Shown here: piece after piece, positions 20,639-63,893 of the stretch
Position numbering within the stretch: position 1 is the first letter of the stretch
Layout: each line of letters starts with the position of its first letter
Origin: Kribbibacterium absianum
GTDB taxonomy: Bacteria > Actinomycetota > Coriobacteriia > Coriobacteriales > Atopobiaceae
Length of the DNA: 64,000 nucleotides
Assembly (NCBI RefSeq): GCF_030067705.1
Contig: NZ_JASJEX010000001.1
Location: 124,001-188,000, forward strand
Direction of reading: 5' to 3'
The notes under the pieces: model-generated
What the model was told of the DNA's origin: nothing
Database searches by the model: none
The model's input: the letters and a program-made list of their open reading frames with translations, nothing else
Translations under genes and position numbers: made by a program

Positions 20639-20744
20639 CTTCGTTACGGGGAGTCCCCGCGCTTCATGGAGTATCCAGACGCAGGCGAGCGGGGTTTCGA
20701 AGAGAATCAGACATCGTTCAAGTCCGATGTGATTGAGGAGAGAC

Positions 20745-23435
20745 ATGCCCGAGAGTTACACCATCACCGTCAACGGGCAGGTGCACGAGACGAGCGAGGA
20801 CAAGTCGCTGCTGCGGTACCTCCGCAACAACCTCAAGCTCAAGTCCGTCAAGGACGGCTGCTCCGAGGGCGCCTGCGGCACCTGCACGATCATCGTGGAC
20901 GGCAAGGCCACCCGTGCCTGCACGCTCACCACCAAGCGCGCCGACGGCAAGACCGTCGTCACCACCGAGGGGCTCACGCCCGAGGAGCGGGAGGCCTTCG
21001 TCTACGCGTTCGGCGTCAAGGGCGCCGTGCAGTGCGGCTTCTGCACCCCGGGCATGGTCATGAGCGGCAAGGCCCTCATCGACCAGAACCCGGACCCCAC
21101 CGAGGCCGAGATCAAGAAGGCCATCCGCGGCAACATCTGCCGCTGCACCGGCTACAAGAAGATCATCGAGGGCATCCAGCTTGCCGCCGCCATCCTCCGA
21201 GGCGACGAGGTCATCGACGAGGCCTTCGAGAAGGGCGACGAGGGCTTCGGCGTGGGCGACCGCGCGTTCCGGCTCGACGTCCGCGAGAAGGTGCTCGGCA
21301 CCGGCAAGTACCCCAACGACTTCGACGAGCGCGACTTCCCTGGCCTCGTGCACGCGGCGGCCGTGCGCTCGGTGCACCCGCGCGCCGTGGTCAAGAAGAT
21401 CCACTACAAGGAGGCCATGCAGGTCCCCGGCGTGATCACGGTGCTCACCGCCAAGGACGTCCCGGTGAACAAGGTGGGCCACCTGCAGCAGGACTGGGAC
21501 GTCATGATCGCCGAGGGCGACACCACCCGCTGCGTGGGGGACGCCATCGCGCTCGTCGTGGCCGAGACGCCCGACGCCGTGCGCATGGCCCGCGACGCGA
21601 TCCTTGTGGACTACGAGGTGCTCGAGCCGGTGCGCAACTGGGAGGAGGCCGCCGCCGAGGGCGCGCCTGCGATCCACGAGCACGCGCCCAACAACATCTG
21701 CCAGCAGCGCCACATCACCCGCGGCGACGCCAAGACCGCGCTCGCCAACTCCGCCTACACGGTCACGGAGACCTTCCACACGCCGTTCACCGAGCACGCG
21801 TTCCTCGAGCCGGAGTGCGCCGTGGCGTACCCGGAGGGCGACGGCGTGCACATCGTGACGACGGACCAGGGCGTCTACGACACCCGCCACGAGGTCGCGC
21901 ACATGTTTGGCTGGGACGACGAGCCCGAGCGCGTCGTGGTGGAGAACGCCCTCGTGGGCGGCGGCTTCGGAGGCAAGGAGGACGTGTCCGTCCAGCACCT
22001 CGCGGCCCTCGCCGCGCTCGCCGTGAACCGGCCGGTCAAGTGCCGCCTCACGCGCCAGGAGTCCATCAACTTCCACCCCAAGCGTCACAAGATGGACGCC
22101 ACCTTCACCGTGGGCTGCGACGAGAACGGCATGCTCACCGGCCTCGACTGCGACGTGTACTTCGACACCGGCGCCTATGCGTCCCTCTGCGGCCCGGTCC
22201 TCGAGCGCGCCTGCACCCACGCGCCCGGCCCGTACACCTACCAGAACACCGACATCCGCGGCTACGGCTACTACACCAACAACCCGCCCGCGGGCGCGTT
22301 CCGCGGCTTCGGCGTGTGCCAGACGGAGTTCGCCCTCGAGATGTGCCTCGACAAGCTTGCCGAGAAGGCCGGCCTCGACCCGTGGGAGATCCGCTACCGC
22401 AACGCCATCGAGCCGGGCAAGGCGCTCCCGAACGGCCAGATCGCCGACTGCTCCACGGCCCTCAAGGAGGCCCTGATCGCGGTCAAGGACGTGTACTACG
22501 CGAACAAGGACCACGCCGGCATCGCGTGCGCGATGAAGAACGCCGGCGTCGGCGTCGGCCTGCCGGACAAGGGCCGCGCCCGTATGATCGTGAACGACGG
22601 CGTCGTCGAGGTGTACTGCGCCGCCTCCGACATCGGCCAGGGCTGCAAGACGGTCTTCGCCCAGATGGCCTGCCAGTCCACCGGGCTCCCGTTGGAGAAG
22701 ATCCGCATGATGCCCGTCTCCACCAAGCTGGGTCCCGACTCCGGCACCACCTCCGGCTCGCGACAGACGCTCATCTCGGGCGAGGCCATCCGCATGGTGG
22801 GCGCGGACCTGGCCGCCGACCTGGCCACCGTGGGCGGCGACCTCTCCCAGCTCGAGGGCAAGGAGTACTACGAGGAGTTCTTCGACCCCACTGACAAGCT
22901 GGGCGCCGACGTTCCCAACCCCAAGAGCCATGTGGCCTACGGCTTCGCCGCGTCCGTGGCCGTGCTCGACGACGAGGGCTGGGTCGCCGAGATCCACCAG
23001 GCCCACGACTCCGGCAAGGTCGTGAACCCCATCGCGATCCAGGGGCAGATCGAGGGCGGCGTGCTCATGTCCATGGGCTACGCGCTCACCGAGAAGTTCC
23101 CGCTCAAGGACTGCGTGCCCACCGCCAAGTACGGCACCCTCGGCCTCTTCCGCGCGGACAAGATCCCCGAGATCGACGCGATCTACGTGGAGAAGGAGCA
23201 GCTGCTGCCGTTCGCCTACGGCTCCAAGGGCGTCGGCGAGATCTCATCGATCCCCACGGCCCAGGCCATCGCGGGGGCCTACTACGCCAAGGACGGCATG
23301 TTCCGCACCTCGCTGCCGCTGGCCGACACGCCCTATGCGCCGAAGCCCAAGCCGGCGAAGAAGAAGATGACGCCGGAGGAGATCCAGGCGGCGATCGCCG
23401 CCAAGAAGGCCGCCAAGGCCAAGAAGGCCGAGTAA
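20745..23435 (+). CDS. Selenium-type xanthine dehydrogenase, Fe-S and molybdopterin domains fused (XdhD-like)
   Basis: An 896-residue enzyme joining a two-cluster [2Fe-2S] domain (CSEGACGTC near residue 39, CGFCTPG near 97, CRCTGYKK near 130) to a molybdenum hydroxylase large subunit (GGGFGGKED near 405, GAFRGFGVCQTEFALE near 513, SDIGQGCKTV near 628, GSKGVGEIS near 825). It has no FAD domain, so it needs an electron partner; YgfK just upstream is the likely one. The family (selenium-dependent xanthine dehydrogenase) carries a labile selenium at molybdenum, not selenocysteine. I chose ATG 20745 with GAGGAG; TTG 20733 is less likely. The last 30 residues (PKPAKKKMTPEE... AKKAAKAKKAE) form an extra Lys/Ala tail. 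Confidence 0.9.
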   Translation: MPESYTITVNGQVHETSEDKSLLRYLRNNLKLKSVKDGCSEGACGTCTIIVDGKATRACTLTTKRADGKTVVTTEGLTPEEREAFVYAFGVKGAVQCGFCTPGMVMSGKALIDQNPDPTEAEIKKAIRGNICRCTGYKKIIEGIQLAAAILRGDEVIDEAFEKGDEGFGVGDRAFRLDVREKVLGTGKYPNDFDERDFPGLVHAAAVRSVHPRAVVKKIHYKEAMQVPGVITVLTAKDVPVNKVGHLQQDWDVMIAEGDTTRCVGDAIALVVAETPDAVRMARDAILVDYEVLEPVRNWEEAAAEGAPAIHEHAPNNICQQRHITRGDAKTALANSAYTVTETFHTPFTEHAFLEPECAVAYPEGDGVHIVTTDQGVYDTRHEVAHMFGWDDEPERVVVENALVGGGFGGKEDVSVQHLAALAALAVNRPVKCRLTRQESINFHPKRHKMDATFTVGCDENGMLTGLDCDVYFDTGAYASLCGPVLERACTHAPGPYTYQNTDIRGYGYYTNNPPAGAFRGFGVCQTEFALEMCLDKLAEKAGLDPWEIRYRNAIEPGKALPNGQIADCSTALKEALIAVKDVYYANKDHAGIACAMKNAGVGVGLPDKGRARMIVNDGVVEVYCAASDIGQGCKTVFAQMACQSTGLPLEKIRMMPVSTKLGPDSGTTSGSRQTLISGEAIRMVGADLAADLATVGGDLSQLEGKEYYEEFFDPTDKLGADVPNPKSHVAYGFAASVAVLDDEGWVAEIHQAHDSGKVVNPIAIQGQIEGGVLMSMGYALTEKFPLKDCVPTAKYGTLGLFRADKIPEIDAIYVEKEQLLPFAYGSKGVGEISSIPTAQAIAGAYYAKDGMFRTSLPLADTPYAPKPKPAKKKMTPEEIQAAIAAKKAAKAKKAE

Positions 23436-23640
23436 GGACCTGGGCGCCCGACCCGGAGCAGAGGCCGGGCGCCCGCACCCCGCGAGAGGGACGATGGGGT
23501 CCGCGAGACTGAAGGGGCCTCAAGAGGAAGACCCTTTCGAGGACAATCGAAGACGACGACCCATCGCGTAAGGGCCGCCAGCCACAGAACCGAGCGCCCA
23601 CGGTAGCTGGGCGAGGACACGTTGGAGGAAGGTCGATGGA
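23436..23640. other. Spacer between the fused xanthine dehydrogenase and the four-gene xdh set
   Basis: Contains a GC-rich hairpin (GGGCGCCCG near 23443 with CCGGGCGCCC near 23466-23475). No promoter stands out, and the ACAAAAAGT motif is absent. The RBS GGAGGAAGG lies at 23623-23631. Confidence 0.4.
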
Positions 23641-25974
23641 ATGAGCAAGTTCAAGGAGGTCGGACGGCCGCTGGCTCGTGTTGACGCCAAAGACAAGGTC
23701 ACCGGCCGTGCGAAGTATTGTTACGACCTGCTGCCCCAGGACCACCTGGTGGCGAAGATGGTCCTGGCGACCATCGGCAACGGCAAGGTGCTCTCCATCG
23801 ACACCTCCGAGGCCGAGCGCGTGCCGGGCGTCGTCGGCGTTTTCACCTGCTTCGATCCCGAGCTGCCCAAGACGCCCTTCGGCACGGCCGGTCACCCCTG
23901 GTCCTGCGACCCAGGCCACCAGGACATCCAGGACCGTTGGATCCTCACGGACCGCGTCCGCCAGTACGGCGACGTGATCGCGGCCGTCGTGGCGGAGGAC
24001 ACCGTGGCGGCCGACCGCGCCGTGCGCGCCGTGAAGGTGGAGTACGAGGAGTACCCGCTCGAGCTCACGCGCCACGAGGCCGTCGACCATCCAGAGGACT
24101 ACCCGCCCCTCCATGAGGCGCGTCCCAACAACATCATCGCCCACGTCGACAACCGCACCGAGGTCGCCGGCGGCTACGATACCATCGAGGAGATCCTCGA
24201 GGACCCGTCTCTGCACCACACGCACGTCGAGGTCACGACGCCGCGCCAGTCGCAGGCGCACATCGAGCTCTGCCTCTCCTACGCCTACGCCGAGGGCGAC
24301 CGCATCACCGTCGTGAGTTCCACGCAGCTGCCGCACATCTGCCGGCGCATCGTGGCCCAGGCGCTCGAGCGGCCGTGGGGCGACATCCGCGTGATCAAGC
24401 CCTACATCGGCGGTGGCTTCGGCAACAAGCAGGACATCCTCTACGAGCCCCTCAACGCGTGGCTCTGCGAGAAGGTGGGCGGCCGCTGCGTGCTGCTCGA
24501 GCTCACGCGCGAGGAGGTCTTCGCCTACACGCGCTCGCGCCAGCCCAAGGAGTGCCACCTGGACGCCGCCTGGGACGACGACATGAACCTCAAGGCGCGC
24601 AAGCTGGAGGGCTGGTCCAACCAGGGCGCCTACGCCGCCCACGGGCATGCGCTGATGGCGAACACCGCCAACAGCTTCCGCCAGGAGTACTCGGGCGTCG
24701 AGCTGGCGCACCACGGCATCGCGACGACGTTCTACTCCAACGAGACCACGGCCGGCGCCATGCGCGCCTACGGCGTGCCCGAGGGCAACTGGGCGGCCGA
24801 GGTGCTCATGAGCGACATCGCCCATGACATGGGCTGGGACGGCTGCGACTTCCGTCTGAAGAACTTCATGAAGCTCGGCTACCGCGACCCCTTCTGGCCG
24901 GGGCCCCTCTGCTGCTACTCGCGCGGCATCGAGGAGTGCGTGGCCAAGGGCAAGGAGCTCATCGGCTGGGACGAGAAGCAGAAGGCTTACAAGGACCAGA
25001 CCGGGCCCATCCGGCACGGCGTGGGCGTCGCGCTCTTCAGCTACAAGACGTCGGTCGCCGGCCTCTCGCTCGAGACCTCCAACGTGCGCATGAACCTCGC
25101 CCAGGACGGCTCCGTGATGCTGCAGATGGGCGCGACTGAGATCGGCCAGGGCGCGGACACCGTCTTCTCCCAGATGGCGGCCGAGACCATCGGCATCCCG
25201 ACGGAGATGGTGCACATCGTCTCGCAGCAGGACACGGACGTGACGCCCTACGACTCCGGCGCCTACGCGTCCCGCCAGAGCTACGTGGCCGGCACCGCGT
25301 GCAAGAAGGTGGCCGAGGAGCTGCGGCAGGAGATCCTCGACTACGCGCACTTCCTGTTCCCCAAGCAGCAGATGCCCTACGACCTCCGCGACGGCGTGAT
25401 CTATGACATCGCCGGCAACGCCGTGACCACGATCGGCGAGGTGGCCATCCAGGCCTACTACCACCCGACCAACGCGAAGCAGATTCAGGCGCAGGACGGC
25501 ATCAACGTCCAAGAGAACACGTTCGCGATGGGCGCGTGCTTCGTGGACCTCACGGTGGACATCCCGATGGCGACCGTGACCTTGAACAACATCGTGGAGA
25601 TTCACGACTCCGGCACCGTGCTCAACCCCAAGACCGCCGAGCAACAGGTTCACGGCGGCATCGGGCAGTCCGCTGGCATGGCCCTCTCGGAGGAGCTCCT
25701 CACCAACCCCAAGGACGGCTCCATCCGCAACAACAACCTGCTCGACTACAAGATCCCGACGGCCATGGACCTGCCGGACCTCACCGCCGGGTTCGTGGAG
25801 ACGTACGACCCCACCGGCCCCTACGGCAACAAGGCGCTCGGCGAGTGCCCGTGCATACCGGCCGCCCCGGCGATCCGGGACGCCATCCTCAATGCAACCG
25901 GCGTGAAGTTCTACGACGCGCCCATGACCCCTCAGCGGCTGTTCGAGGGATTCAAGAAGGAGGGTTTGATCTAG
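23641..25974 (+). CDS. Xanthine dehydrogenase molybdopterin-binding subunit, copy 1
   Basis: A 777-residue large subunit of a three-subunit molybdenum hydroxylase, oxidising a purine such as hypoxanthine or xanthine. The N-terminus VGRPLARVDAKDKVTGRAKYCYDLLP is the small Mo-subunit domain. Molybdenum-pocket motifs include KPYIGGGFGNKQD (near residue 255), TTAGAMRAYGVPEGNWAAE (near 365), ATEIGQGADTVFSQMA (near 498), QQVHGGIGQSAGMAL and PYGNKALGECPCIPAAPAIRDAI (near 728). It begins the set xdhA1-xdhB-xdhC-xdhA2, all within 0-10 bases or overlapping. It is about two-thirds identical by eye to the protein at 27374 and shares the unusual YEPLNAWLCEKVGGRCVLLE segment. Confidence 0.92.
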   Translation: MSKFKEVGRPLARVDAKDKVTGRAKYCYDLLPQDHLVAKMVLATIGNGKVLSIDTSEAERVPGVVGVFTCFDPELPKTPFGTAGHPWSCDPGHQDIQDRWILTDRVRQYGDVIAAVVAEDTVAADRAVRAVKVEYEEYPLELTRHEAVDHPEDYPPLHEARPNNIIAHVDNRTEVAGGYDTIEEILEDPSLHHTHVEVTTPRQSQAHIELCLSYAYAEGDRITVVSSTQLPHICRRIVAQALERPWGDIRVIKPYIGGGFGNKQDILYEPLNAWLCEKVGGRCVLLELTREEVFAYTRSRQPKECHLDAAWDDDMNLKARKLEGWSNQGAYAAHGHALMANTANSFRQEYSGVELAHHGIATTFYSNETTAGAMRAYGVPEGNWAAEVLMSDIAHDMGWDGCDFRLKNFMKLGYRDPFWPGPLCCYSRGIEECVAKGKELIGWDEKQKAYKDQTGPIRHGVGVALFSYKTSVAGLSLETSNVRMNLAQDGSVMLQMGATEIGQGADTVFSQMAAETIGIPTEMVHIVSQQDTDVTPYDSGAYASRQSYVAGTACKKVAEELRQEILDYAHFLFPKQQMPYDLRDGVIYDIAGNAVTTIGEVAIQAYYHPTNAKQIQAQDGINVQENTFAMGACFVDLTVDIPMATVTLNNIVEIHDSGTVLNPKTAEQQVHGGIGQSAGMALSEELLTNPKDGSIRNNNLLDYKIPTAMDLPDLTAGFVETYDPTGPYGNKALGECPCIPAAPAIRDAILNATGVKFYDAPMTPQRLFEGFKKEGLI

Positions 25975-25977
25975 GCC

Positions 25978-26868
25978 ATGTATGACATCGTTTATTACCA
26001 CGAGGCCGAGAGCGTGCAGGACGCGGTGAGGGCCCTGACCGAGCATCCCGAGGCTCGCGTCATCGCGGGAGGCACCGACGTCCTGGTCCAGATCCGCGAG
26101 GGCCGCTTCGGGCCCTGCGAGCTGGTCTCCATCCACGAGCTGCGCGACGAGCTCTGGGGCGTGACGCTCGACGAGGACGAGACCATCTGCATCGGCCCCA
26201 TCACCTGGTTCCATGCCGTGAACACCGACCCCATCTGCCAGGAGCGCATCCCGGTGCTGTGCGACGCGTGCGACACCCCGGGTGGCCCGCAGCTGCGCGT
26301 GTCCGGCACGGTGGGCGGCAACCTGTGCAACGGCATCACGTCCGCCGACACCGCGTCCACGTTCTTCGCGTTCGGCGCCGAGCTGGTGCTGGAGGGGCCG
26401 AACGGCCGCCGCGTGGTGCCCATCGAGAAGTGGTACGCGGGGCCCGGCAAGACCGTGCGCGAGCAGAACGAGGTGCTCGTCCAGATCCGCATCCCCAAGA
26501 GCCACTACGAGGGCTTCACCGGCGAGTACATCAAGTACGGCAAGCGTCGCGCGCTCGAGATCGCGACGATGGGCTGCTGCTGTCTGGTGAAGCTGGCCGA
26601 CGACCACGAGACCATCGAGGACGTGCGCTTCGCGTACGGCGTGGCGGGCCCCAACCCGTGCCGGTCCGAGGCCGCCGAGAACATCGCCCGCGGGAAGACC
26701 GTCGCCGAGGCCGCCCCGCTCGTGGGCGAGGCCGCGCTCGAGGACCTGCACCCGCGCGACTCCTGGCGCGCGTCCAAGGACTTCCGCGAGCAACTGATCA
26801 AAGAGATGACGAAGCGCGCGCTCGTTGAGGCCGCTGCCAAGGGAGGTTCGACCGCATCATGGAAATGA
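25978..26868 (+). CDS. Xanthine dehydrogenase FAD-binding subunit
   Basis: A 296-residue FAD domain protein of the CO dehydrogenase/xanthine dehydrogenase type. It has the FAD pyrophosphate loop VIAGGTDVLVQIREG near residue 37 and the second flavin motif LRVSGTVGGNLCNGITSADTA near 107, followed by the C-terminal CODH flavoprotein domain (YGVAGPNPCRSEAAE). It passes electrons from the Fe-S subunit to the final acceptor. It starts three bases after the stop of the Mo subunit; the AGGAGGG is rather far upstream (14 bases). Its 3' end overlaps the Fe-S gene by 10 bases. Confidence 0.92.
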   Translation: MYDIVYYHEAESVQDAVRALTEHPEARVIAGGTDVLVQIREGRFGPCELVSIHELRDELWGVTLDEDETICIGPITWFHAVNTDPICQERIPVLCDACDTPGGPQLRVSGTVGGNLCNGITSADTASTFFAFGAELVLEGPNGRRVVPIEKWYAGPGKTVREQNEVLVQIRIPKSHYEGFTGEYIKYGKRRALEIATMGCCCLVKLADDHETIEDVRFAYGVAGPNPCRSEAAENIARGKTVAEAAPLVGEAALEDLHPRDSWRASKDFREQLIKEMTKRALVEAAAKGGSTASWK

Positions 26869-27374
26869 GGATCCTCAGCTGCACCGTCAATGGCAAGCCG
26901 GTCCAGGTGGGCTACGACGTCCGCGAGTGCCTGCTCGACACCCTGCACGACCGGCTCGGCCTCACGTCCGTGAAGCGCGGGTGCGAGGTGGGGGAGTGCG
27001 GCGCCTGCACCGTCCTTATCGACGGCGTGGCCACGGACACCTGTCTCTACCTGACCGCCTGGGCCGAGGGAAAGACCATCGAGACCGTGGAGGGGCTGCA
27101 GGCCCCGGACGGCACGCTCGACGTGGTGCAGCAGGCCTTTGTGGACGAGTTCGCCGTCCAGTGCGGGTTCTGCATCCCGGGCCTCATCATGTCCGCCGAG
27201 GAGATGGTGCGGTCGGGCAAGACCTTCACGCGCGATGAGATCCGCAAGTGCCTGTCCGGCCACCTGTGCCGCTGCACCGGCTACCAGAACATCGTGAACG
27301 CGGTCGAGAAGGCGACCAACCTCGTGAACGGCATGGTGGGTGAGGAGGCAAGCGGGACCGAGGAGGTGGCCTGA
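26859..27374 (+). CDS. Xanthine dehydrogenase [2Fe-2S] subunit
   Basis: A 171-residue protein with two [2Fe-2S] clusters. The plant-ferredoxin-like N-terminal cluster is RGCEVGECGACTVLIDG...DTC (residues about 43-65) and the helical second cluster is QCGFCIPGLIMSA with CRCTGYQNIVNAV (about 105-145). All eight cysteines are present. ATG 26859 overlaps the FAD gene and ATG 26865 is an alternative two codons later. The stop overlaps the start of the second Mo subunit (TGATG), so the Fe-S subunit is probably shared by both large subunits. Confidence 0.92.
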   Translation: MEMRILSCTVNGKPVQVGYDVRECLLDTLHDRLGLTSVKRGCEVGECGACTVLIDGVATDTCLYLTAWAEGKTIETVEGLQAPDGTLDVVQQAFVDEFAVQCGFCIPGLIMSAEEMVRSGKTFTRDEIRKCLSGHLCRCTGYQNIVNAVEKATNLVNGMVGEEASGTEEVA

Positions 27375-29770
27375 TGGCGCTCATCAACCCGGCGCCGCCC
27401 GCCGACTCACTGGCTCCCGAGAGGGCCGGGGCCGCTCGCTTCACGCAGGTCGGCAAACCGGTCACCCGCATCGACGCGGTGGACAAGGTGACGGGGCGCG
27501 CCAAGTTCACGTACGACCTACTGCCCACGGACCATCTCGTGGCCAAGGTGGTGCGCTCCACCATCGCGAGCGGCCGCGTGCTCTCCTTCGATCTGGACGA
27601 GGCGTTGGCCGAGCCCGGTGTGGTGGCGATCTTCACCTGTCTTGACGAGGGGCTGCCCACCTACCAGTTCGCGAGCCCCGGGCACCCGTGGGTCGTGGAC
27701 CCGGAGGAGCGCGGCGACATCGAGGACCGCACGCTCATGGACTCCCGCGTGCGCCAGTACGGCGACACCATCGGCGTGCTTGTGGCCGAGGACACCGTGG
27801 CGGCCGAGCGCGCCCTGCGCAAGATCAAGGTGGAGTACGAGGAATATCCGGTCGTCTTCACCTACGAGCAGTCCCAGGACCCGGACTACGCGCCGCCCAT
27901 CCACGAGGAGTGCCCCAACAACGTCCAGGCGGACTGGCTCACCGAGGTGGGCGTCGAGGAGGCCGGCTACTCGTCGATGGAGGAGCTGCTGCACGACCCG
28001 CAGTACCACAGCGGCAGCTACCACATGAGGACACCGCGCCAGCAGCAGGCGCACATCGAGCTCTGCCTGTCGTTCTGTTACGAGGAGAACGGCCAGATCG
28101 TCTGCGTCACCTCGACGCAGATCCCCCACATCGTGCGCCGCGTGATTGGCCAGGCGCTCGAGATCCCCTGGGGCGACGTGCGCGTGATCAAGCCCTTCGT
28201 GGGCGGCGGCTTCGGCAACAAGCAGGACGTCCTGTACGAGCCGCTCAACGCCTGGGTGTGCCACAAGCTCGGCGGCCGCTGCGTGCTGCTCGAGCTCACC
28301 CGTGAGGAGGTCTTCGAGCAAACCCGCTCCCGGCAGCCGAAGGACTACTACGGCGAGGCCTGCTGGGACGACGACATGAACCTCGTGGCCCGCAGCTGCG
28401 AGGGGTTCTCGAACTCGGGCGGCTACGCGAGCCACGGCCAGGCGATCATCGCCAACGGCCTCGGGTCGTTCCGGTTCATGTACTCGGGGCAGGAGAAGGC
28501 CTGCCGCACCCGGGCGCTCACGTTCTACTCCAACCAGGCCACGGCCGGGGCCATGCGCGCCTACGGCGTGCCCGAGGCGACCTGGGCGGCCGAGTGCATG
28601 GTGAGCGACATCGCCCACGACATGGGCTGGGACGGCGCGGACTTCCGCGCCAAGAACGCCATCAAGCTGGGCTACGAGGACGTCACCTGGCCCGCCCCGC
28701 TCATCTGCCAGTCGAACGGCATCCAAGAGTGCATCGAGCGGGGCCGCGAGCTTATCGGCTGGGACGAGAAGAAACGGCGCTACGCCAACGAGACGGGACC
28801 GGTACGCCATGGCGTGGGCATGTCGCTGCTCTGCTACAAGTGCTCCGTCGGCGGCCTCGAGCTCGAGACGGCGAGCGCGCGCATGACGCTCAACCAGGAC
28901 GGGTCGGTGGTGCTGACGCTCGGCGCGACCGAGATCGGCCAGGGCTGCGACACGGTCATGTGCCAGATGTGCGCCGAGGTGCTGGGCGTCCCGGTGGAGA
29001 AGGTGCACATCGTCAGCACCCAGGACACCAACATCAGCCCCTACGGCGCGGGCGCCTACGCCAGCCGCCAGACGTACGTGACCGGCATGACCATCAAGCA
29101 GGTGGGCGCCGAGTTCAAGGCGAAGATCCTGGACTACGCGCGCTACCTCAAGCCCTACTACAACGGGCAGGACCTCGACATCGCGGACAGTTGGGTGGTC
29201 GACGCGGCCGGGCGTCGGGTGATCAGCCTGGAAGAGCTCTCGACGATCGCCTACTACGACCGCAAGCGCTCCGACCAGATCGAGGCCTCGGGCACCACCG
29301 AGGAGGACGTGAACTCCTTCTGCCTCGGCGCCTGCTTCGTAGACGTGACGGTGGACATACCGATGGCCACCGTGACCGTGAACCAGATCGTCCAAGTGCA
29401 CGACTCCGGGCAGATCATCAACCCCAAGACGGCCGAGCAGCAGGTGCACGGCGGCATCGCGCAGTCGCTCGGCATGGGGCTCTACGAGGAGCTCATCGAG
29501 GACCCCGCGACGGGCAAGACCCGCAACGGAAACCTGCTCGACTACAAGATCCCGACGACGATGGACGTGCCGGACCTGACGGCCGAGTTCGTCGAGACCT
29601 GGGACCCGACGGGGCCCTTTGGCAACAAGTCGCTCGGCGAGCCGCCATGCATCCCGTGCGCGCCGGCCATCCGCGACGCGGTGCTCGACGCGACCGGGGT
29701 GAAGTTCTACGAGGCGCCGATGACGCAGCAGCGCCTCTTCGAAGGCTTCAAGGCCGCCGGGCTCCTGTAG
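27374..29770 (+). CDS. Xanthine dehydrogenase molybdopterin-binding subunit, copy 2
   Basis: A 798-residue paralogue of the subunit at 23641, with the same motif order (KPFVGGGFGNKQD, TAGAMRAYGVPEATWAAE, ATEIGQGCDTVMCQM, QQVHGGIAQSLGMGL, PFGNKSLGEPPCIPCAPAIRDAV). It has a 20-residue N-terminal extension (ALINPAPPADSLAPERAGA) not seen in copy 1. Differences near the active site (GCDTVMCQM against GADTVFSQM, SLGEPPC against ALGECPC) suggest different substrates. The start ATG overlaps the Fe-S gene stop. A transposase element begins 6 bases after the stop codon, so any original downstream operon gene is separated from it. Confidence 0.92.
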   Translation: MALINPAPPADSLAPERAGAARFTQVGKPVTRIDAVDKVTGRAKFTYDLLPTDHLVAKVVRSTIASGRVLSFDLDEALAEPGVVAIFTCLDEGLPTYQFASPGHPWVVDPEERGDIEDRTLMDSRVRQYGDTIGVLVAEDTVAAERALRKIKVEYEEYPVVFTYEQSQDPDYAPPIHEECPNNVQADWLTEVGVEEAGYSSMEELLHDPQYHSGSYHMRTPRQQQAHIELCLSFCYEENGQIVCVTSTQIPHIVRRVIGQALEIPWGDVRVIKPFVGGGFGNKQDVLYEPLNAWVCHKLGGRCVLLELTREEVFEQTRSRQPKDYYGEACWDDDMNLVARSCEGFSNSGGYASHGQAIIANGLGSFRFMYSGQEKACRTRALTFYSNQATAGAMRAYGVPEATWAAECMVSDIAHDMGWDGADFRAKNAIKLGYEDVTWPAPLICQSNGIQECIERGRELIGWDEKKRRYANETGPVRHGVGMSLLCYKCSVGGLELETASARMTLNQDGSVVLTLGATEIGQGCDTVMCQMCAEVLGVPVEKVHIVSTQDTNISPYGAGAYASRQTYVTGMTIKQVGAEFKAKILDYARYLKPYYNGQDLDIADSWVVDAAGRRVISLEELSTIAYYDRKRSDQIEASGTTEEDVNSFCLGACFVDVTVDIPMATVTVNQIVQVHDSGQIINPKTAEQQVHGGIAQSLGMGLYEELIEDPATGKTRNGNLLDYKIPTTMDVPDLTAEFVETWDPTGPFGNKSLGEPPCIPCAPAIRDAVLDATGVKFYEAPMTQQRLFEGFKAAGLL

Positions 29771-44929: not shown

Positions 44930-46030
44930 ATGGAGAAGATCTACAACAGCCCGTCCAAGTACATCCAGGGGCCCGGTGCGCTCGGCAGCCTCGGGTCGTT
45001 CGTGGCGACGCGCGGCACGAAGGCGCTGGCCATTGCGACCGCCTCCGGCGAGCGGCGCATCGGCGACACCGTGCGCGCCGGCTTCGACGGCGTGGACGCC
45101 ACGGTGACCTTCGACGCCTTTGGGGGCGAGTGCTCCAAGACCGAGGTCGCGCGGCTGCGTCAGGTGGTGCAGGAGGGCGGCTTCGACGTGGTCTGCGGTA
45201 TCGGCGGCGGGAAGGCGCTCGACACCGCCAAGGCCGTGGCCTACTACGAGAAGCTGCCGGTGATCATCTGCCCCACCATTGCGAGCTCCGACGCGCCCTG
45301 CTCGGCACTGTCCGTGCTCTACACGGACGACGGCGCCTTTGACGAGTACCTTTTCCTGCCGAGCAACCCGGACATGGTGATCATGGATACCACGGTGATC
45401 GCCGCCTCGCCGGTGCGGCTCACCGTCTCCGGTATGGGCGACGCGCTCGCCACGTGGTTCGAGGCCAAGGCCTGCGCGGACTCCGACGCCGGCACGTGCG
45501 CCGGCGGCAAGTCGACGCTGGCGGCGCTCGCGCTCGCGGAGCTCTGCTACAAGACCCTCATGGCCGACGGCGAGAAGGCGAAGGTCGCCCTCGACGCCGG
45601 CGCCTGCACCCTGGCCGTGGAGCGCGTGATCGAGGCGAACACGCTGCTCAGCGGCATCGGCTTCGAGTCGAGCGGCCTCGCCTGCGCGCACGCGGTGCAC
45701 AACGGCCTCACGAGCCTGCCCGGCACGCATGCCTACTACCACGGCGAGAAGGTGGCCTTCGGCACGCTCGTGCAGCTCGTGCTCGAGGACGCCGACCAGG
45801 ACCTGCTGGCCGAGGTGCTCGACTTCTGCTGCGCGATCGGCCTGCCGGTGACGCTCGGGCAGATCGGCGCCGGTGACGCGACCGACGAGCAGCTGCTCGC
45901 CGTTGCCGAGGCCGCCTGTGCGCCGGACGACACGATGGGCAACATGCCGTTCGAGGTCACGCCGGAGATGGTGGTGAACGCGATCAAGGGCGCGGACGCG
46001 CTCGGCCGCGTGTGGCTCGCCGAGGAGTAG
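44930..46030 (+). CDS. gldA: Glycerol dehydrogenase
   Basis: A 366-residue NAD-dependent, zinc-containing glycerol dehydrogenase, oxidising glycerol to dihydroxyacetone. Zinc ligands sit at the expected numbers Asp171 (SGMGDAL), His254 (CAHAVHNG) and His271 (YYHGEK). The NAD loop is CGIGGGKALDTAKAVAY near residue 90. ATG 44930 has GGAAGGAG upstream. It lies behind the hydantoinase terminator, so its expression is probably separate from the purine genes. Confidence 0.92.
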   Translation: MEKIYNSPSKYIQGPGALGSLGSFVATRGTKALAIATASGERRIGDTVRAGFDGVDATVTFDAFGGECSKTEVARLRQVVQEGGFDVVCGIGGGKALDTAKAVAYYEKLPVIICPTIASSDAPCSALSVLYTDDGAFDEYLFLPSNPDMVIMDTTVIAASPVRLTVSGMGDALATWFEAKACADSDAGTCAGGKSTLAALALAELCYKTLMADGEKAKVALDAGACTLAVERVIEANTLLSGIGFESSGLACAHAVHNGLTSLPGTHAYYHGEKVAFGTLVQLVLEDADQDLLAEVLDFCCAIGLPVTLGQIGAGDATDEQLLAVAEAACAPDDTMGNMPFEVTPEMVVNAIKGADALGRVWLAEE

Positions 46031-46044
46031 CGAAACCTGCGATT

Positions 46045-46069
46045 GTGCAATTGGGGACGGAGCATTTTG
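46045..46069 (+). repeat. Partial copy of the TGCAAAAGGGGAC-type repeat
   Basis: GTGCAATTGGGGACGGAGC matches one arm of the inverted pair at 57199-57280; the partner arm is lost. Confidence 0.4.
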
Positions 46070-46240
46070 TCAGGTAGTTGTGCACGTGATATCTGGTAGC
46101 CGGACATCACCCGTTGGGCCTTGATGCGCGGTTTGGCAGCGGGACGCGGCCGAAGGGTCGCGTCCCGTTGTTCTTGTCGCCAAACTCCCAGGCTTTTTGG
46201 GCATAATTAACCCATGCAATTCCCAGAATCTGGAGGAGCC

Positions 46241-46549
46241 ATGCCCACCTGCGTCCCTATCAGCGACCTCAAGAACACGACGGCCTTTGCGGAGACCGTG
46301 GCGAATGCGGACGAGCCGGTCATCGTGACCAAGAACGGCCATGAGGTGTTCGTGTGCCTCGACGCCCAGAAGTTTCGAGAGTATCGGCTCGTGCCTAAGG
46401 AGGACTACGAAGCAGAGCTCGCGCGCGAAAGGGCACTCGAGGAGCGGGTGGTAGCTCGCGTGAGAGAGAGCATCGCGCAAATCGATGGTGGTCAGATCAT
46501 CGCCAATGACGAGGCGATGAAGCTCACGAGAGAGCGTTATGGCTGGTAG
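46241..46549 (+). CDS. Phd/YefM-family antitoxin
   Basis: A 102-residue antitoxin of a type II toxin-antitoxin pair. The N-terminal DNA-binding dimer domain reads CVPISDLKNTTAFAETVANADEPVIVTKNGHEVFVCLDAQKF (residues 4-45), typical of Phd/YefM; the charged C-terminal helix (EDYEAELARERALEERVVARVRESI) would wrap the toxin. GGAGG lies before ATG 46241; an upstream ATG 46214 lacks one. It overlaps the toxin gene by 11 bases, giving coupled translation, and is probably autoregulated by the complex. Confidence 0.85.
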   Translation: MPTCVPISDLKNTTAFAETVANADEPVIVTKNGHEVFVCLDAQKFREYRLVPKEDYEAELARERALEERVVARVRESIAQIDGGQIIANDEAMKLTRERYGW

Positions 46550-46859
46550 GGCGGTCTGGTCGCCTGAGGCGCTGCAGGGCTGGTTTGAGGTTCTGGATTA
46601 CCGGCTGGAGCAGGCTGGCTCCGAATCTACGCGCTCGCTCAGCGACGCCCCCGCCGGTCGCGTCGCTCTCATTGTCCAACAGCCGGAGCTCTATGGCTTT
46701 TCCCGCCTGCCTGAGTTGCGCGCCCTGGGCGTTCGCGCGTCGTTCGTCGAGAATTGCGTGATCCTCTATCGGGCAGGCGGAGCCTCGGTGGCCATTCTCT
46801 TGGTTGCTGACGCGCGGATTGACTACGCGGCCCACGTGCGCGGCGCGGGGCAGGACTGA
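46539..46859 (+). CDS. RelE/ParE-family toxin
   Basis: A 106-residue partner of the antitoxin upstream. The ParE/RelE-like fold is suggested by WSPEALQGWFEVLDYRLEQAG, PELYGFSRLPELRALGVRASFVENCVILYR and AILLVADARIDYAAHVRG (residues about 7-103). ParE types block gyrase and RelE types cut mRNA; this cannot be decided from sequence. It starts inside the antitoxin gene. Confidence 0.8.
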   Translation: MAGRAVWSPEALQGWFEVLDYRLEQAGSESTRSLSDAPAGRVALIVQQPELYGFSRLPELRALGVRASFVENCVILYRAGGASVAILLVADARIDYAAHVRGAGQD

Positions 46860-46865
46860 GCCAAT

Positions 46866-46894
46866 GTGCAAAAGGGGACTGTCCCCTTTTGCAC
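46866..46894. repeat. Perfect 29-nt palindrome after the toxin gene
   Basis: Arms GTGCAAAAGGGGAC and its complement around a single T, then ACGTCCCCTTTTTT. It starts 7 bases behind the toxin stop and probably acts as a terminator. Confidence 0.75.
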
Positions 46895-47013
46895 ACGTCC
46901 CCTTTTTTCGGAGCACGCCGAGCCTGTTCTTTTGGTTGGCGACGCGTGAATTGACCGTGTGGCCCGCTTGCGTGGAAGAGGCAGAAGCGGCCGATCGGCT
47001 CGATTCAAGGGCT

Positions 47014-47781
47014 CTAGAGCTGCACGGCCCACTCGCCGTACTCGAACCTTCCTGAGCCGTGACGGAGCAGGCCGCAGCCGGCAAGATCTACGAGCGCATC
47101 GCGCACCTCGGACAGGAGCTCTGGGCGCACCTCCAGGCCGTGGTGCGCGGGGAGCACGCGTTTGACCGGAAGTCCTGCCACGCGCCGCAGCGACGCAAGA
47201 TAGGCGAGCGGGTCAGTGGAGGGGAAGTCCGCGCGCAGCGTTCCCAAATACACGAGGTCCCCGGTGAACAGATAGCCACGCTCCGGCTCCCAGAAACACA
47301 GATGGCCGGGGGAATGGCCGGGCGTGTGGAGCGCTTGGACGGCGCGGCACCCCAGGTCGATCCAGTCATCGTCGTTGAGCAGCCGGGAAGGCTCGCCCTG
47401 GAACACACGGTATCGGTCGATGTCGAAGCCGTTCGGAGCGTCAAGCCCTTCGAGAAGCATCGCCCGGATGCGTTGTTCCGGAAGCGGGAACCTGCCTCGG
47501 AGCCAATCCAGCTCCGCCTCGGGAGCGCAAAAGCTCGGGAAGCTGCCAAGGCTGCCGATGTGGTCCCAGTGGACGTGTGTTGTGACGGCCGTTGTGGGCA
47601 AATCTGTGAGCCGGGACACGGGCTCCGCGATGTCGAGCACGCCGAGCCCGGTGTCGATGAGGAGCGCCCGATCGCGTCCACGCAGCACATAGGAGTGGGT
47701 CTCCTCGGGATGGCCGTACTCGCTGATGACCCACGTGTCGTGGTCAATCGGCTCGACGGTGAACCAGTCTTCTCGGTTCAT
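47014..47781 (-). CDS. Metallo-beta-lactamase-fold hydrolase
   Basis: A 255-residue MBL-fold enzyme. The dinuclear metal motif TTHVHWDH is at residues 67-74 (His69, His71, Asp73, His74); further ligands are HTPGHSPGH near 152, YLFTGDLVY near 170 and the final PAHHG near 211. The substrate is unknown; relatives include glyoxalase II-like thioesterases and lactonases. It is convergent with the toxin gene and alone on its strand. There is no clear strong RBS other than AAGCA upstream of ATG 47781. Confidence 0.85.
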   Translation of the reverse strand: MNREDWFTVEPIDHDTWVISEYGHPEETHSYVLRGRDRALLIDTGLGVLDIAEPVSRLTDLPTTAVTTHVHWDHIGSLGSFPSFCAPEAELDWLRGRFPLPEQRIRAMLLEGLDAPNGFDIDRYRVFQGEPSRLLNDDDWIDLGCRAVQALHTPGHSPGHLCFWEPERGYLFTGDLVYLGTLRADFPSTDPLAYLASLRRVAGLPVKRVLPAHHGLEVRPELLSEVRDALVDLAGCGLLRHGSGRFEYGEWAVQL

Positions 47782-48166
47782 AGGTGCTTCCCCTCGTTGT
47801 ATGCGACAAAACCCGAGCGAACCGCGTCACAAGGCTCGGGCGCGTCAAATGAAGCGTAGGCCATCGCAGTCGAGGAGCCCCAGGCCAGCTGGGCCTCTCT
47901 GTGGAGCGGTCGTGCATAACCAACGAAACCGCCCGCCGAAATGCTCCGTCTCCATTGTCAGCGGCAATGTGCAAAAGGGGACTGTCCCTTTTTGCACATG
48001 CTCTCTTGAATCAAACTGAATTACTTGGAAGTTTCATGGAAGTGGCAGCGCCGTAAGCGTGTCCCTTACATCGCGTTACCGAAACACCCAGGCAACCAGT
48101 TGCGAGCATTCTCCCAGCTAGCGGCGCTAGCAGCGGGGCCGGCGCCACGAGCGTGAGGAGGATGCC
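47782..48166. other. Intergenic region before amtB
   Basis: 385 bases containing a 29-nt palindrome (47969-47997) and otherwise no recognisable gene. The amtB RBS (GTGAGGAGG at 48153-48161) is at the end. No clear promoter pair was found. Confidence 0.5.
47969..47997. repeat. 29-nt palindrome, second copy
   Basis: Same unit as 46866-46894 with one changed base in the right arm. Confidence 0.7.
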
Positions 48167-49798: not shown

Positions 49799-49875
49799 GG
49801 ACGCTTCGGAGAGAGCCATTTGTCCACGCTCCGACTAGCTGGAGCGTGGACAATTCGCTTTGACCGAAGCGTCCA
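49799..49875. repeat. 35-nt REP repeat, inverted pair left of RAYT 2
   Basis: Two units face each other (49799-49832 inverted, 49841-49875 direct) with an 8-nt gap. Consensus core GTGGACAA....GCT...CCGAAGCGTCC. Such inverted doublets of REP units are called REPINs when they move with a RAYT transposase. Confidence 0.8.
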
Positions 49876-58800: not shown

Positions 58801-58837
58801 CGCAAGGGGTACCCTGCTGAGGGAGAAAAGAGGGGAT

Positions 58838-59761
58838 ATGACCGACAAACGCGTGGCTGCATGCATCGCGGCAGGGGAGAGCCTCTGGGCGAACCCGCTC
58901 GTGCCGGTGGGCGACGTCAGCGCGGTTCGCCGCGCGGTGATCGCGTTTCAACAGGCGGGGGCGTTCCCGCTCGTCGTCGTCACGGACCGTGACGACAAAG
59001 ACCTCAAGGCCCACCTGGCCAACCGCGGCATCGTGTTCCTGCGCCACGACGAGCCGGGTCCCCACGAGCTCTTTGACTCCGTCAAGCTCGGGTTCTCGTT
59101 CCTTGCCCCCATGTGCGACTACGTGGCCTTCGCGCCGGTCAACACGCCGGTCTTCTCGGTGGACACGGTCCGGCGGCTCGTGGAGGCTTGCGAGCAGACC
59201 GCCCAGCCCTCCTATCAGGGCCACTCGGGGCATCCGGTGGTCGTGAGCTCGGAGGCGGTGCCGGAGGTGCTCGCGTACCAAGGGCCGGCTGGCCTGCGCG
59301 GCGCGATCCGTTCCCTGTCCGGGCGCCGGTGGGTGGATGTGGACGAGGAGTCAGTCACGGCGACGGTCTTTGACGACGACGTGATCGAGCGAGCCCTTCC
59401 CGCGAACGACGCCCAGTTGGTGCGACCCGTCATCAGGATGACCCTCGAGCGGGACGAGGCGTTCTGCGACGAGCGCACAAAGCTCCTGCTCTTCCTCGTT
59501 GAGCAGACCGGCAACTTGCGGCGCTCCTGCGACCTCATGGCGCTCTCCTACGCCAAAGGCTGGAGTCTCGTGAACGAGCTGGAGGACGCCGTGGGCTTCG
59601 CTGTCGTGAACCGTCGACGGGGCGGCGCCCAGGGCGGGGCGACCCAGCTGACGGACCAGGGCGCGCGCTTCCTGCACGCGTACCTTCGGCTCGAGCGGGG
59701 GGTGCTCGAGCACGCCCAGCGGCGTTTCGACGAGGAGCTGGCCGGCATCCTGAGGGGCTGA
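58838..59761 (+). CDS. Degenerate MocA-like domain fused to a C-terminal ModE-type HTH
   Basis: A 307-residue protein with the opposite domain order from the protein at 40637. Residues 1-200 resemble a MobA/MocA nucleotidyltransferase (VVTDRDD, FAPVNTPVFSVDTVRRLV, GHPVVVSSE), but the nucleotide signature LAAGxSxRMGxxK is changed to IAAGESLWANPLVPVG, lacking the Arg and Lys. Residues 210-300 form a ModE/LysR winged helix (KLLLFLVEQTGNLRRSCDLMALSYAKGWSLVNELEDAVGF...LTDQGARFLHAY). It may sense cofactor or nucleotide without catalysis and control the molybdenum operon that starts 145 bases downstream. RBS GAGGGGAT is weak-to-moderate. Confidence 0.78.
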   Translation: MTDKRVAACIAAGESLWANPLVPVGDVSAVRRAVIAFQQAGAFPLVVVTDRDDKDLKAHLANRGIVFLRHDEPGPHELFDSVKLGFSFLAPMCDYVAFAPVNTPVFSVDTVRRLVEACEQTAQPSYQGHSGHPVVVSSEAVPEVLAYQGPAGLRGAIRSLSGRRWVDVDEESVTATVFDDDVIERALPANDAQLVRPVIRMTLERDEAFCDERTKLLLFLVEQTGNLRRSCDLMALSYAKGWSLVNELEDAVGFAVVNRRRGGAQGGATQLTDQGARFLHAYLRLERGVLEHAQRRFDEELAGILRG

Positions 59762-59905: not shown

Positions 59906-60574
59906 TTGTCGGCCGATCAGCTGCGCCTATTCGCTGTGGTGTGCGTCGCGGGGCGGTCCCGGCGCATGGGGGCGTTCAAGCCTCTGTTGCCAGTGTGCGG
60001 GCGACCGATGGTTCAACAATCGATAGCTTCCGCGCTTCTCGGGGGCGCCTCGGGCGTGGTGTGCGTGACCGGCCATCGGGCTGAGGACGTGGAGGCCGTC
60101 GTCACGGAGGCCTTCGGGGACCGCGTAATCGTGGCCCGCAACGAGGCCCACGCGACGACGGACATGCTCCGCTCCATCCAGGTGGGCTGCGCGGCGCTGC
60201 CGAACTGCGACGCCTTTTATCTGCTGCCCGGCGACATGCCCGTTGTGCGCCCCCGCACGTTCAGGGTGCTCGCGGACGCTTGGGACGAGCGGCGCTCCGG
60301 TGTGTGCTTCCCCACGCTGGACGGCCATCGCAAGCACCCGCCGCTGATCGACGCCCGCCTCGCCCCGGCCATCCGTGCCTATCAGGGCGAACAAGGCCTC
60401 CGCGGCTTCTGGAACGCCCATCAGGCCCTCTGTCGGGACGTCCCCGTGACCGACCCCGGCACCTGGGTGGACCTCGACACGGCACAGGATTACCTGTCGT
60501 GCATAGCAAGGCTCAACCATCGAGCGAAGGAACAGGAGGTAGACGAGTGGAGAACATCAGCCGTCCCGTGGTGA
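59906..60574 (+). CDS. MocA-family molybdenum cofactor nucleotidyltransferase
   Basis: A 222-residue NTP transferase. The signature VVCVAGRSRRMGAFKPLLPVCGRPMVQQ (residues about 10-37) is the intact L-A-G-x-S-x-R-M-G-x-x-K pattern of MobA/MocA, and FYLLPGDMPVVRPRTF near 101 is the metal site; HPPLIDARLAPAI near 148 is typical of MocA. It cytidylylates molybdopterin for hydroxylases such as xanthine dehydrogenase. The start is TTG 59906 with AAAGGGG, an uncommon but plausible choice. It overlaps the next gene by 28 bases. Confidence 0.85.
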   Translation: MSADQLRLFAVVCVAGRSRRMGAFKPLLPVCGRPMVQQSIASALLGGASGVVCVTGHRAEDVEAVVTEAFGDRVIVARNEAHATTDMLRSIQVGCAALPNCDAFYLLPGDMPVVRPRTFRVLADAWDERRSGVCFPTLDGHRKHPPLIDARLAPAIRAYQGEQGLRGFWNAHQALCRDVPVTDPGTWVDLDTAQDYLSCIARLNHRAKEQEVDEWRTSAVPW

Positions 60575-62587
60575 AGAAGGACCACGAGGCAAAGATGTCC
60601 GGTCGCGCCGTGTACGTGTGCGACTACCCGGACGAGGGCTTGCTGACCGGCAAGCTCGTTCGGTCCAGCCGTCCCAAGGCCAAGATCCTCGAGGTCCGGG
60701 TGCCCACGCTGCCCGAGGGCTACGCGTGGATCGACCGCACCTGCGTGCCCGGCGAGAACCGCGTGCAGATCGTCAAGGACGACACGCCGGTCTTCGCCAA
60801 CGAGGTCGTCGAGTTCATCGGCGAGACCATCGGCATGGTGGTGGGCCCCGACCCCGCGAAGGTGGCCGAGCTGGCTTCCCAAGTGGATGTGGCTTACGAG
60901 GACCTCGAGCCCTGCCTCGACGTTCTCGAGAGCGATGTCGCGTTCTTTGAGTACGAGTTCGGCCACGGGGACCTGGACGCGGCCTTTGCCGATGCCGACA
61001 AGGTCTATCAGGAGACCTTCCGCACCGGCGCCCAGGAGCAGGCCTACCTCGAGACCCAGGCCATGGTCGCCGAGCCCGAGGAGAGCGGGCGCATGTTCGT
61101 GCACGGCTCGATGCAGTGCGCGTACTACGTCCACGGCGCCGTGATGAAGGCGCTCGGCGTCGGCCCCGACCAGGTCCACGTGTTCCAGGACGTGACCGGC
61201 GGCGGTTTCGGTGGCAAGGAGGCCTTCCCGTCGATTCTCGCGTGCCAGGTGGCCGTGGCCGCCCGCACGGTGAACAAGCCGGTGCGCGTCGTGTTCGAAC
61301 GCCGCGAGGACATGGAGTTCACGTCCAAGCGCCACCCGTCCGTCAACACCTACAAGGTGGCCGTCAAGGACGGCCGCGTGACGGCCATGGACATCGAGGT
61401 GGTCTTCGATGCCGGCGCGTACACCACGCTCTCCGCCGTCGTGCTCCAGCGTGGCATCATCGCCGCCCCGGGCGTCTACGACGTGCCGAACGTGCACGTG
61501 CACGGCCGCGCGATGAAGACCAACTCGAGCCCGTCCGGCGCGTACCGCGGCTTCGGCGCGCCGCAGACGTTCTTCTCGGTCGAGCTGATGATGGACCACA
61601 TCGCCCGCGACCTCGGCGTCGACTCTTTGACGTTCAAGGAGTCCATGCTCGTCAAACAGGGCGACAAGACCTCCACGGACGGCCTCTATCACTTCCCAGT
61701 GCCGCTACCGCCGGGGCATCGGCATGAGCCTGTACTTCCACGGCGCCGGCTTCACGGGCACGGGCGAGCGCGACACGATCAAGGCCACCGCCAAGCTCCA
61801 CAAGTACCCGGACGGCACCGTCGAGGTGCTCGCCTCCAACGGCGAGATCGGCCAGGGCCTTCGCACGACGTTCCCCAAGATCGTCGCGAACGAGCTCAAC
61901 ATCCCGCTCGAGAAGGTCTTCTACAACCATCCGGACACGGCGCGCGTGCCCGACTCCGGCCCCACGGTGGCATCGCGCTCGCTGATGACGGTGGGCGAGC
62001 TGCTGCGCCACGCGGCCGTCAAGCTCCGCAGCGATTGGAAAGAGGGCGAGGACCAGGTCGTCACCGAGCACTACAAGCAGCCGGATTTCATGATCGACTT
62101 CGACATGGCGACCTTCTCGGGCGACGCGTACCCCACCTACGCCTGGGGCGTCAACGCCATCGAGGTGGAGCTGGACACCTACACCGGCCTCGTGAAGATC
62201 CTCGGCGCCTACGGCAACTTCGATGTGGGCACGCCGATCGATTGGAACATCGTGATGGGCCAGATGGAGGGCGGGTTCCTTCAGGGCATCGGCTACGCCT
62301 CCATCGAGCAGATCGGCTACGACAAGACCGGGCGCATCCGCAACCGCTCCTTCTCGGACTATCTGATCCCGACCGCGATGGACGTGCCGAACATGCAGTG
62401 CCTGCTGCACGTCGAGAAGTACCCCTACGGCCCCTACGGCGCCAAGGGCGCGGGCGAGCTGCCGCTGGTGGGCGCCGCGGGCGCGTACGTGGAGGCCATG
62501 GAGCAGGCCCTCGGCAACGTCGAGCTGCACCACGCGCCGTTCACTGCAGAGGACGCAATCGCTGAGCTGGGAAAGGAGGCGGAGTAG
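60547..62587 (+). pseudogene. Molybdenum hydroxylase large subunit, broken by an internal deletion and frameshift
   Basis: GTG 60547 (AGGAGGT upstream) starts a purine-hydroxylase Mo subunit (SGRAVYVCDYPDEGLLTGKLVRSS, then DVTGGGFGGKEAFPSIL near 218, GAYRGFGAPQTFFSVELMMDHI near 335). At about 61700 the frame passes from DGLYHFPVPLP into unrelated sequence. The true continuation, YRRGIGMSLYFHGAGFTG, is one frame over from 61706 and runs intact to 62587 (NGEIGQGLRTTF, YGPYGAKGAGELPLVGAAGAY). Compared with the two intact copies in this window, a linker of about 30-60 residues is missing at the junction. No RBS precedes the internal ATG 61724. It is probably inactive. Confidence 0.82.
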
Positions 62588-62589
62588 CG

Positions 62590-63063
62590 ATGGATGAGAT
62601 CCGCTTCACGTTGAACGGCGAGGCCGTGGCCTACGACGGCAGCGCGGCCGACCGCCTGTTGGACGTCCTGCGCGACGTCTACGACGACCGCTCTGTCAAG
62701 TGTGGCTGCAAGGAAGGGGAGTGCGGAGCCTGCGCCGTCCTCATCGACGGCGAGCTGGTCAACTCCTGCATGGTGGCCATGGGCGCCGTGGATGGCTCGG
62801 CGGTGGTCACGCTCGAGGGCTACCGCGAGACGGACCGCTTTCGGGCGCTCGACAAGGCATTCGCCGAGGTGACGGCCGTGCAGTGCGGCTACTGCATCCC
62901 GGGCATGGTGTTGGCCGCCGAGGCGACGCTGGCCAAGCACCCGCACCCGACGGACGACCAGATCCGCGAGGGCCTGAGCGGCAACCTGTGCCGCTGCACC
63001 GGTTACAACGCCATCGCCCAGGCGGTGGCCAACGCCGCAGAGGAGGCGAACGGGCTATGGTAG
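62590..63063 (+). CDS. Molybdenum hydroxylase [2Fe-2S] subunit
   Basis: A 157-residue two-cluster Fe-S protein: CGCKEGECGACAVLIDGELVNSC (residues about 38-60) and QCGYCIPGMVLAAEA with LSGNLCRCTGYNAIAQAV (about 98-145). All cluster cysteines are present. It starts 3 bases after the broken large subunit and overlaps the FAD subunit start, so the operon structure remains although the partner is damaged. It might serve another large subunit. Confidence 0.9.
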   Translation: MDEIRFTLNGEAVAYDGSAADRLLDVLRDVYDDRSVKCGCKEGECGACAVLIDGELVNSCMVAMGAVDGSAVVTLEGYRETDRFRALDKAFAEVTAVQCGYCIPGMVLAAEATLAKHPHPTDDQIREGLSGNLCRCTGYNAIAQAVANAAEEANGLW

Positions 63064-63893
63064 ACGGCTTTGTCCCCACGACGGTGGAAGAGGCTCTGGA
63101 GCTCAAGGCCAAGTTTCCTGAGCTGGTGCCCTATGCGGGCGGCACGGACCTGATGGTGGAGAACCGCCCCGAGGTGGACTATCTGTTCCTGAACAGGCTC
63201 TGCGACCTCAAGCACGTGACCGAGGACGACGAGCACATCCGGATCGGCTCGGGCGTGACGTTCACCAAGGCCATCGCCGACCCGCTCGTGCCGCAGGTGA
63301 TGAAGGACGCGCTCGTCAAGATCGCGGCGCCGGCCATCCGCAACGCCGGCACCTTTGGGGGCAACCTCGGCAACGGCAGCGCGAAGGCCGACTCGGTGCT
63401 CGTGGAGTACGCGCTCGGCGCGCTGATCCGGGTGGGGTCGGTGGATGGCGACCGCACCGTCCCGGTGCATGAGTTCTACCGGGGGCGCAAGCAGCTCGAC
63501 CTCGCCCCGAACGAGCTGATCCTCGAGGTGCTGCTGCCCAAGGCCAACCTCGGCCCCTACTACTACGAGAAGGTGGGCGGCCGCCGTGCCCTCGCCATCT
63601 CGCGGGTGGCGTTCTGCGGCGTGCTCACGACCGAGGCGAACGCGGACGGCAACGAGGTGATCCGGTCCATCTCGCCCTCCTTCGGCGCGGTGTCCGGCAC
63701 GGTCCTTCGGTTCCCGGAGTTGGAGAGGCAGTTCGAGGGCCTGACGCGGGAGCAGGCCGCGAAGCAGCGGCTGAGCTTTGTGACCGCCTATGAGGACCAC
63801 CTGAAGCTGACGGAGGGCCGCGTTTCGGCCGCCTACCGCCGGCAGGTGTGCCTCAACTTGCTGGGCGCGTTCCTGGACGCGGTCGGCATCTAG
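63057..63893 (+). CDS. Molybdenum hydroxylase FAD-binding subunit
   Basis: A 278-residue FAD subunit. It has the flavin loop VPYAGGTDLMVENRPEV near residue 22, the second flavin motif AIRNAGTFGGNLGNGSAKADSVLVEYALGA near 95, and a CODH-type C-terminal domain (YYYEKVGGRRALAISRVAFCGVL). ATG 63057 overlaps the Fe-S gene stop. It shows low similarity to the FAD subunit at 25978, consistent with a separate origin of this locus. Confidence 0.9.
   Translation: MVDGFVPTTVEEALELKAKFPELVPYAGGTDLMVENRPEVDYLFLNRLCDLKHVTEDDEHIRIGSGVTFTKAIADPLVPQVMKDALVKIAAPAIRNAGTFGGNLGNGSAKADSVLVEYALGALIRVGSVDGDRTVPVHEFYRGRKQLDLAPNELILEVLLPKANLGPYYYEKVGGRRALAISRVAFCGVLTTEANADGNEVIRSISPSFGAVSGTVLRFPELERQFEGLTREQAAKQRLSFVTAYEDHLKLTEGRVSAAYRRQVCLNLLGAFLDAVGI

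Follow-up and report, generated by a model that had tools for sequence, protein, structure and literature searches.

The locus analyzed here raises the question of whether a molybdenum hydroxylase gene that is spread over two reading frames is a real gene loss in the organism, an artefact of the genome assembly, or a working enzyme made in two pieces. The gene lies in a 64,000-nucleotide stretch of the Kribbibacterium absianum genome, and this whole stretch is referred to as the window. Positions 60547-62587 were identified by open reading frame analysis and ortholog alignment as one large subunit of the xanthine oxidase family, with its parts in two frames. A sequence-only reading of the window had described this subunit as broken, either by a recent loss or by a deletion introduced in sequencing or assembly. 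The present analysis supports that claim and favors a real, fairly recent loss. The gene is very probably a pseudogene: the catalytic (Mo-binding) subunit of a three-subunit xanthine-oxidase-family hydroxylase, broken by a deletion, in a selenium-dependent molybdenum hydroxylase (SDMH) locus. The features of the locus are collected in Table 1.

Table 1 Features of the broken large-subunit gene and its partner genes (window positions).
Feature	Position	Strand	Basis or remark
MocA/YgfJ-like molybdenum cofactor cytidylyltransferase, uninterrupted, overlaps the start of the broken gene	59906..60574	+	TIGR03310 E=3.3e-34, NF045665 E=5.9e-50
Large subunit, upstream part, Ald_Xan_dh_C and MoCoBD_1 domains, in frame up to PVPLP	60547..61710	+	388 codons; ortholog alignment and Pfam
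Deletion junction GCCGCTACCG, fits the upstream (V)PLP and the downstream (G)RYR codons	61701..61710	+	83 nt short compared with 21 orthologs
Off-frame run-on of the upstream frame, without stop	61711..62565	+	tail of ~284 residues
Large subunit, downstream part, MoCoBD_2 domain and KGAGE motif, other frame	61724..62587	+	287 codons
2Fe-2S subunit, intact	62590..63063	+	0/51 invariant columns violated
FAD subunit, intact over full length	63066..63893	+	ortholog alignment

The upstream frame matches the orthologs through the last residue of the PVPLP motif. The downstream frame, from the ATG at 61724 to the stop codon at 62585-62587, matches them from MSLYFHG to the end. The position of the frame switch was also determined without alignment, via a codon-usage Viterbi scan that was trained on the other genes of the window and used no homolog information. 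The scan placed the switch at 61696-61712. In the upstream part, the GC content at codon positions 1, 2, and 3 was 0.67, 0.40, and 0.93, respectively, and a correct frame has about 0.65, 0.41, and 0.94. When the upstream frame was read beyond the junction, these values became 0.42, 0.95, and 0.63. This pattern is the signature of a frame error and agrees with the Viterbi switch.

There is no stop codon at the break, and the upstream frame remains open to 62565, giving a predicted protein of 672 residues. The three domains Ald_Xan_dh_C, MoCoBD_1, and MoCoBD_2 were all detected by Pfam, but they are spread over the two frames, and MoCoBD_2 was absent from the 672-residue reading. An intact ortholog (L011) carries all three domains on one polypeptide, whereas the broken gene does not. 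The same domains are shared by the family of XdhA, PucD, and bovine XO chain C, and here the genes for MocA, the Fe-S subunit, and the FAD subunit are adjacent. Unlike in those proteins, an 83-nt deletion breaks the coding sequence and shifts its frame. The intact ortholog of the large subunit scored below every NCBIfam equivalog cut-off.

The size of the deletion was measured against orthologs from 18 loci of other species, together with genomes from the same family and from the same order. The relatives searched numbered 100 and were all from outside the genus. The spacing between PVPLP and MSLYFHG was 96 nt (32 codons) in 21/21 orthologs, each with a single uninterrupted frame and no stops, and 13 nt in the broken gene. 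Thus, 83 nt are missing, and since 83 leaves a remainder of 2 when divided by 3, the deletion is out of frame. The sequence-only reading had placed a frame change at about 61700-61706 and had noted a missing linker in comparison with intact copies. The first is borne out by the Viterbi scan and the GC content by codon position, and the second by the linker lengths.

The lost segment corresponds to ...MIDEVDxACDxRRKHKEYxxPQTG... in the ortholog alignment, and several of its residues are invariant or nearly so. It covers about residues 389-415 of the intact ortholog, in whose AlphaFold model (mean pLDDT 72, pTM 0.74) helices are found at residues 387-398 and 400-407, within blocks with pLDDT above 90. 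The deletion thus takes out two confidently predicted helices. A search of the genome for a displaced linker or a second intact copy of the gene returned neither, and the other matches to the linker region were 26-40% identical. Similarly, no close paralog of the downstream part was found in the genome; the best match was 37% identical and covered part of the downstream half. Within the window, the paralogous copies share only about 30-37% identity with the downstream half. Orthologs from other genomes therefore serve as the useful intact reference.

The missing linker bears directly on the idea that a full-length protein is recovered by programmed frameshifting or recoding. The strong codon bias and the conserved motifs are kept in both frames, which speaks for such a mechanism. 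However, even a perfect frame change would leave the product short of about 28 conserved linker residues. The arrangement occurs in no ortholog, and a slippery heptamer was not seen by eye at the junction. Recoding is extremely improbable on this evidence.

The junction itself suggests how the 83 nt would have been lost. The bases CCA GTG CCG CTA CCG encode PVPLP in the upstream frame, and the same junction bases read CGC TAC CGC CGG GGC ATC GGC, or RYRRGIG, in the downstream frame. Either side of the break can thus account for as many as ten bases, GCCGCTACCG at 61701-61710. The Val-Pro-Leu-Pro codons and, 83 nt further, the Gly-Arg-Tyr-Arg codons may look much alike in a GC-rich genome (GCCGCTnCC), and they are mutually out of frame. 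The segment between them may have been lost by slippage between two such short, imperfect direct repeats. The Leu codon CTA at the junction is rare here: it makes up 3 of the 524 Leu codons counted for training, with pseudocounts. Its presence suggests that the junction base derives from the Tyr codon TAC of the downstream copy. The ancestral repeats were then probably imperfect (GCCGCTnCC). The full 10-nt repeat was found in none of the orthologs, and partial matches at the 83-nt offset were common. Judged from the protein motifs and the relatives, short-repeat slippage is the likely cause. The short out-of-frame deletion, the possible repeat at the junction, and the intact flanking genes are shared with bacterial pseudogenes that arose by slippage. 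The one departure from typical cases is an upstream frame that happens to remain open, in a GC-rich genome.

A deletion at a short repeat could also be produced in the computer. The real gene may be intact, and 83 nt may have been dropped by collapse of the short repeat or by mixing of haplotypes from a mixture of strains. The genome is a draft of 7 contigs, and the intact partners and the absence of other decay are what a working gene would show. However, any repeat at the junction would span no more than 10 nt, far shorter than the usual assembly k-mers or reads, and the contamination estimate is 0.3% with a completeness of 99.78%. The codon-usage scan was extended to 278 kb of the genome with 218 coding segments; it is blind to frameshifts that reach a stop within about 60 nt. 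The switch in the large subunit was the sole long-running one in this sample. Its run-on is 853 nt, and no other switch had an upstream frame continuing for more than about 65 nt. A single long-running switch in 278 kb makes an error-ridden assembly unlikely, and a generally frameshift-ridden assembly was rejected on this basis. The same count argues against a local error, which we consider unlikely. A real deletion in the organism is favored because the lesion spans 83 nt rather than one or two bases, lies in non-repetitive coding sequence, and may bear the mark of a short repeat; losses of this size are not typical of base-level sequencing errors.

If the deletion is real, the two parts might still work as separate chains. 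Eubacterium barkeri nicotinate dehydrogenase is a Mo-Se enzyme in which the substrate/Moco domain is naturally split into the L and M chains (PMC5746545). The two halves of the broken gene correspond to NdhL and NdhM (PDB 3hrd, chains A and B), and the point of division is almost identical (PMC5746545). In the alignment, residue 14 of NdhM falls on residue 7 of the downstream half, and NdhM begins only a few residues from the break, which indicates that a split at such a point is tolerable in principle. The downstream open reading frame also opens with an in-frame ATG and keeps the main motifs. A working large subunit of this kind would consist of an N-terminal chain and a C-terminal chain translated from the ATG at 61724. 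However, NdhL and NdhM are a natural split with two proper genes, whereas here two separately terminated chains with a complete linker were not found. The upstream chain runs on without a stop into the long off-frame tail, the 83 nt of conserved linker helices are gone, and 0/21 orthologs are split. Before the ATG at 61724 there is no clear ribosome-binding site, only GGGG. A shorter-query search aimed at aligning the linker with NdhL did not have 3hrd among its matches. Tested against 3hrd, a natural split was judged unlikely for its missing linker, absent stop, long tail, and unsplit orthologs, and a working two-polypeptide subunit is accordingly rated very improbable. Slightly less probable still is that the deletion itself yielded a newly split Mo(-Se) hydroxylase that still functions, its C-terminal chain being initiated internally. 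If true, it would be a fresh example of how the nicotinate-dehydrogenase-type L/M split could arise.

The pseudogene reading agrees with what is left of the active site. In the xanthine oxidase family, the active site draws on both halves of the large subunit, with GGFGGKE and AYRGFG in the upstream half and GQG and the catalytic Glu of KGAGE in the downstream half. No single chain of the broken gene carries both. Translation from the normal start would give the 672-residue protein with its last ~284 residues off-frame. Such a product, without the second Moco-binding domain and the catalytic glutamate, would almost certainly be an inactive enzyme. The frame is intact in the relatives, and a full-length product cannot be restored from the broken gene. 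Because the upstream frame ends only shortly before the Fe-S gene begins at 62590, the break need not interfere with translation of the genes that follow.

The loss is probably fairly recent because there is no other visible decay in the operon. No second lesion was found in about 2 kb, and the codon bias is undegraded, with GC3 values of 0.93 and 0.95. In a count made to look for relaxed selection, invariant columns of the large subunit were violated at 2/125 positions upstream and 5/128 downstream. The downstream number exceeds that of most orthologs, and one ortholog is higher, with 7; it may reflect an older relaxation or merely a divergent lineage. The case looks like ordinary gene loss, with no new biological system.

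The sequence-only reading had also regarded the Fe-S, FAD, and MocA genes as functional, and all three were confirmed to be uninterrupted against their orthologs. Both E-values of the MocA gene are below the curated cut-offs, and MocA orthologs occupy the same place in other loci. The Fe-S and FAD subunit genes directly adjoin the large subunit. The fused selenium-dependent xanthine dehydrogenase (XDH) gene downstream aligns with its orthologs and has no stops. Several other loci repeat the order MocA, large subunit, Fe-S subunit, FAD subunit, and fused Se-dependent XDH. Among the genomes with an intact version of the operon are one from the same family (L057) and several others.

Further downstream are genes for a double-cubane-cluster reductase, YedF, an EF2568-like cysteine desulfurase/selenocysteine lyase family protein, SelD, YqeC, and YqeB, the last three above the NCBIfam cut-offs in L055. 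The SDMH loci of E. faecalis and C. difficile and their recognized marker genes have been described (PMC2276186, PMC11448449). The Se-dependent XDH, YedF, the EF2568-like protein, SelD, YqeC, and YqeB are shared with these loci and are directly downstream here. Unlike in E. faecalis and C. difficile, an extra three-subunit hydroxylase precedes the fused Se-XDH, and this is the one that is broken. The downstream markers suggest that the broken enzyme may have been a Mo-Se hydroxylase. The locus marks a conserved two-hydroxylase Mo/Se operon in which one hydroxylase is a fresh natural knock-out and the other is intact. Annotators should be warned that this strain is not to be credited with the first hydroxylase of the operon, despite the presence of all partner genes.

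Several other features were observed around these genes. The double-cubane-cluster anaerobic reductase gene (L055:10634-12052; NF040772, above the cut-off) is situated between the Se-dependent XDH and YedF/SelD/YqeC/YqeB. Another molybdenum hydroxylase locus, the first in the window (20733-29770), contains a fused Se-dependent XDH of 900 aa together with two large subunits of the XdhA type. All three are uninterrupted and above the NCBIfam cut-offs. At 58832-59761, adjoining the Mo hydroxylase operon, a MocA-like (NTP transferase, DVU_1551-like) domain is fused to a ModE-type molybdate-responsive DNA-binding domain. Both domain matches are below the curated cut-offs, and the fusion is a possible cofactor-linked regulator.

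A repeat containing TTTGACCGAAGCGTCCA was found at window positions 49859, 54192, 54233, 58690, 58751, 63898, and 63943, which is 7 copies compared with 0.02 expected. The genome contains 80 copies with up to 1 mismatch, and the reversed control pattern gave 0. The copies are often in inverted or tandem pairs, many spaced by 33 or 45 nt, and one pair is directly behind the FAD gene. This interspersed repeat is a REP-like family. In the codon-usage scan, the coding signal at 46030-48150 was weak and inconsistent on both strands, and this region is possibly foreign or decayed DNA.
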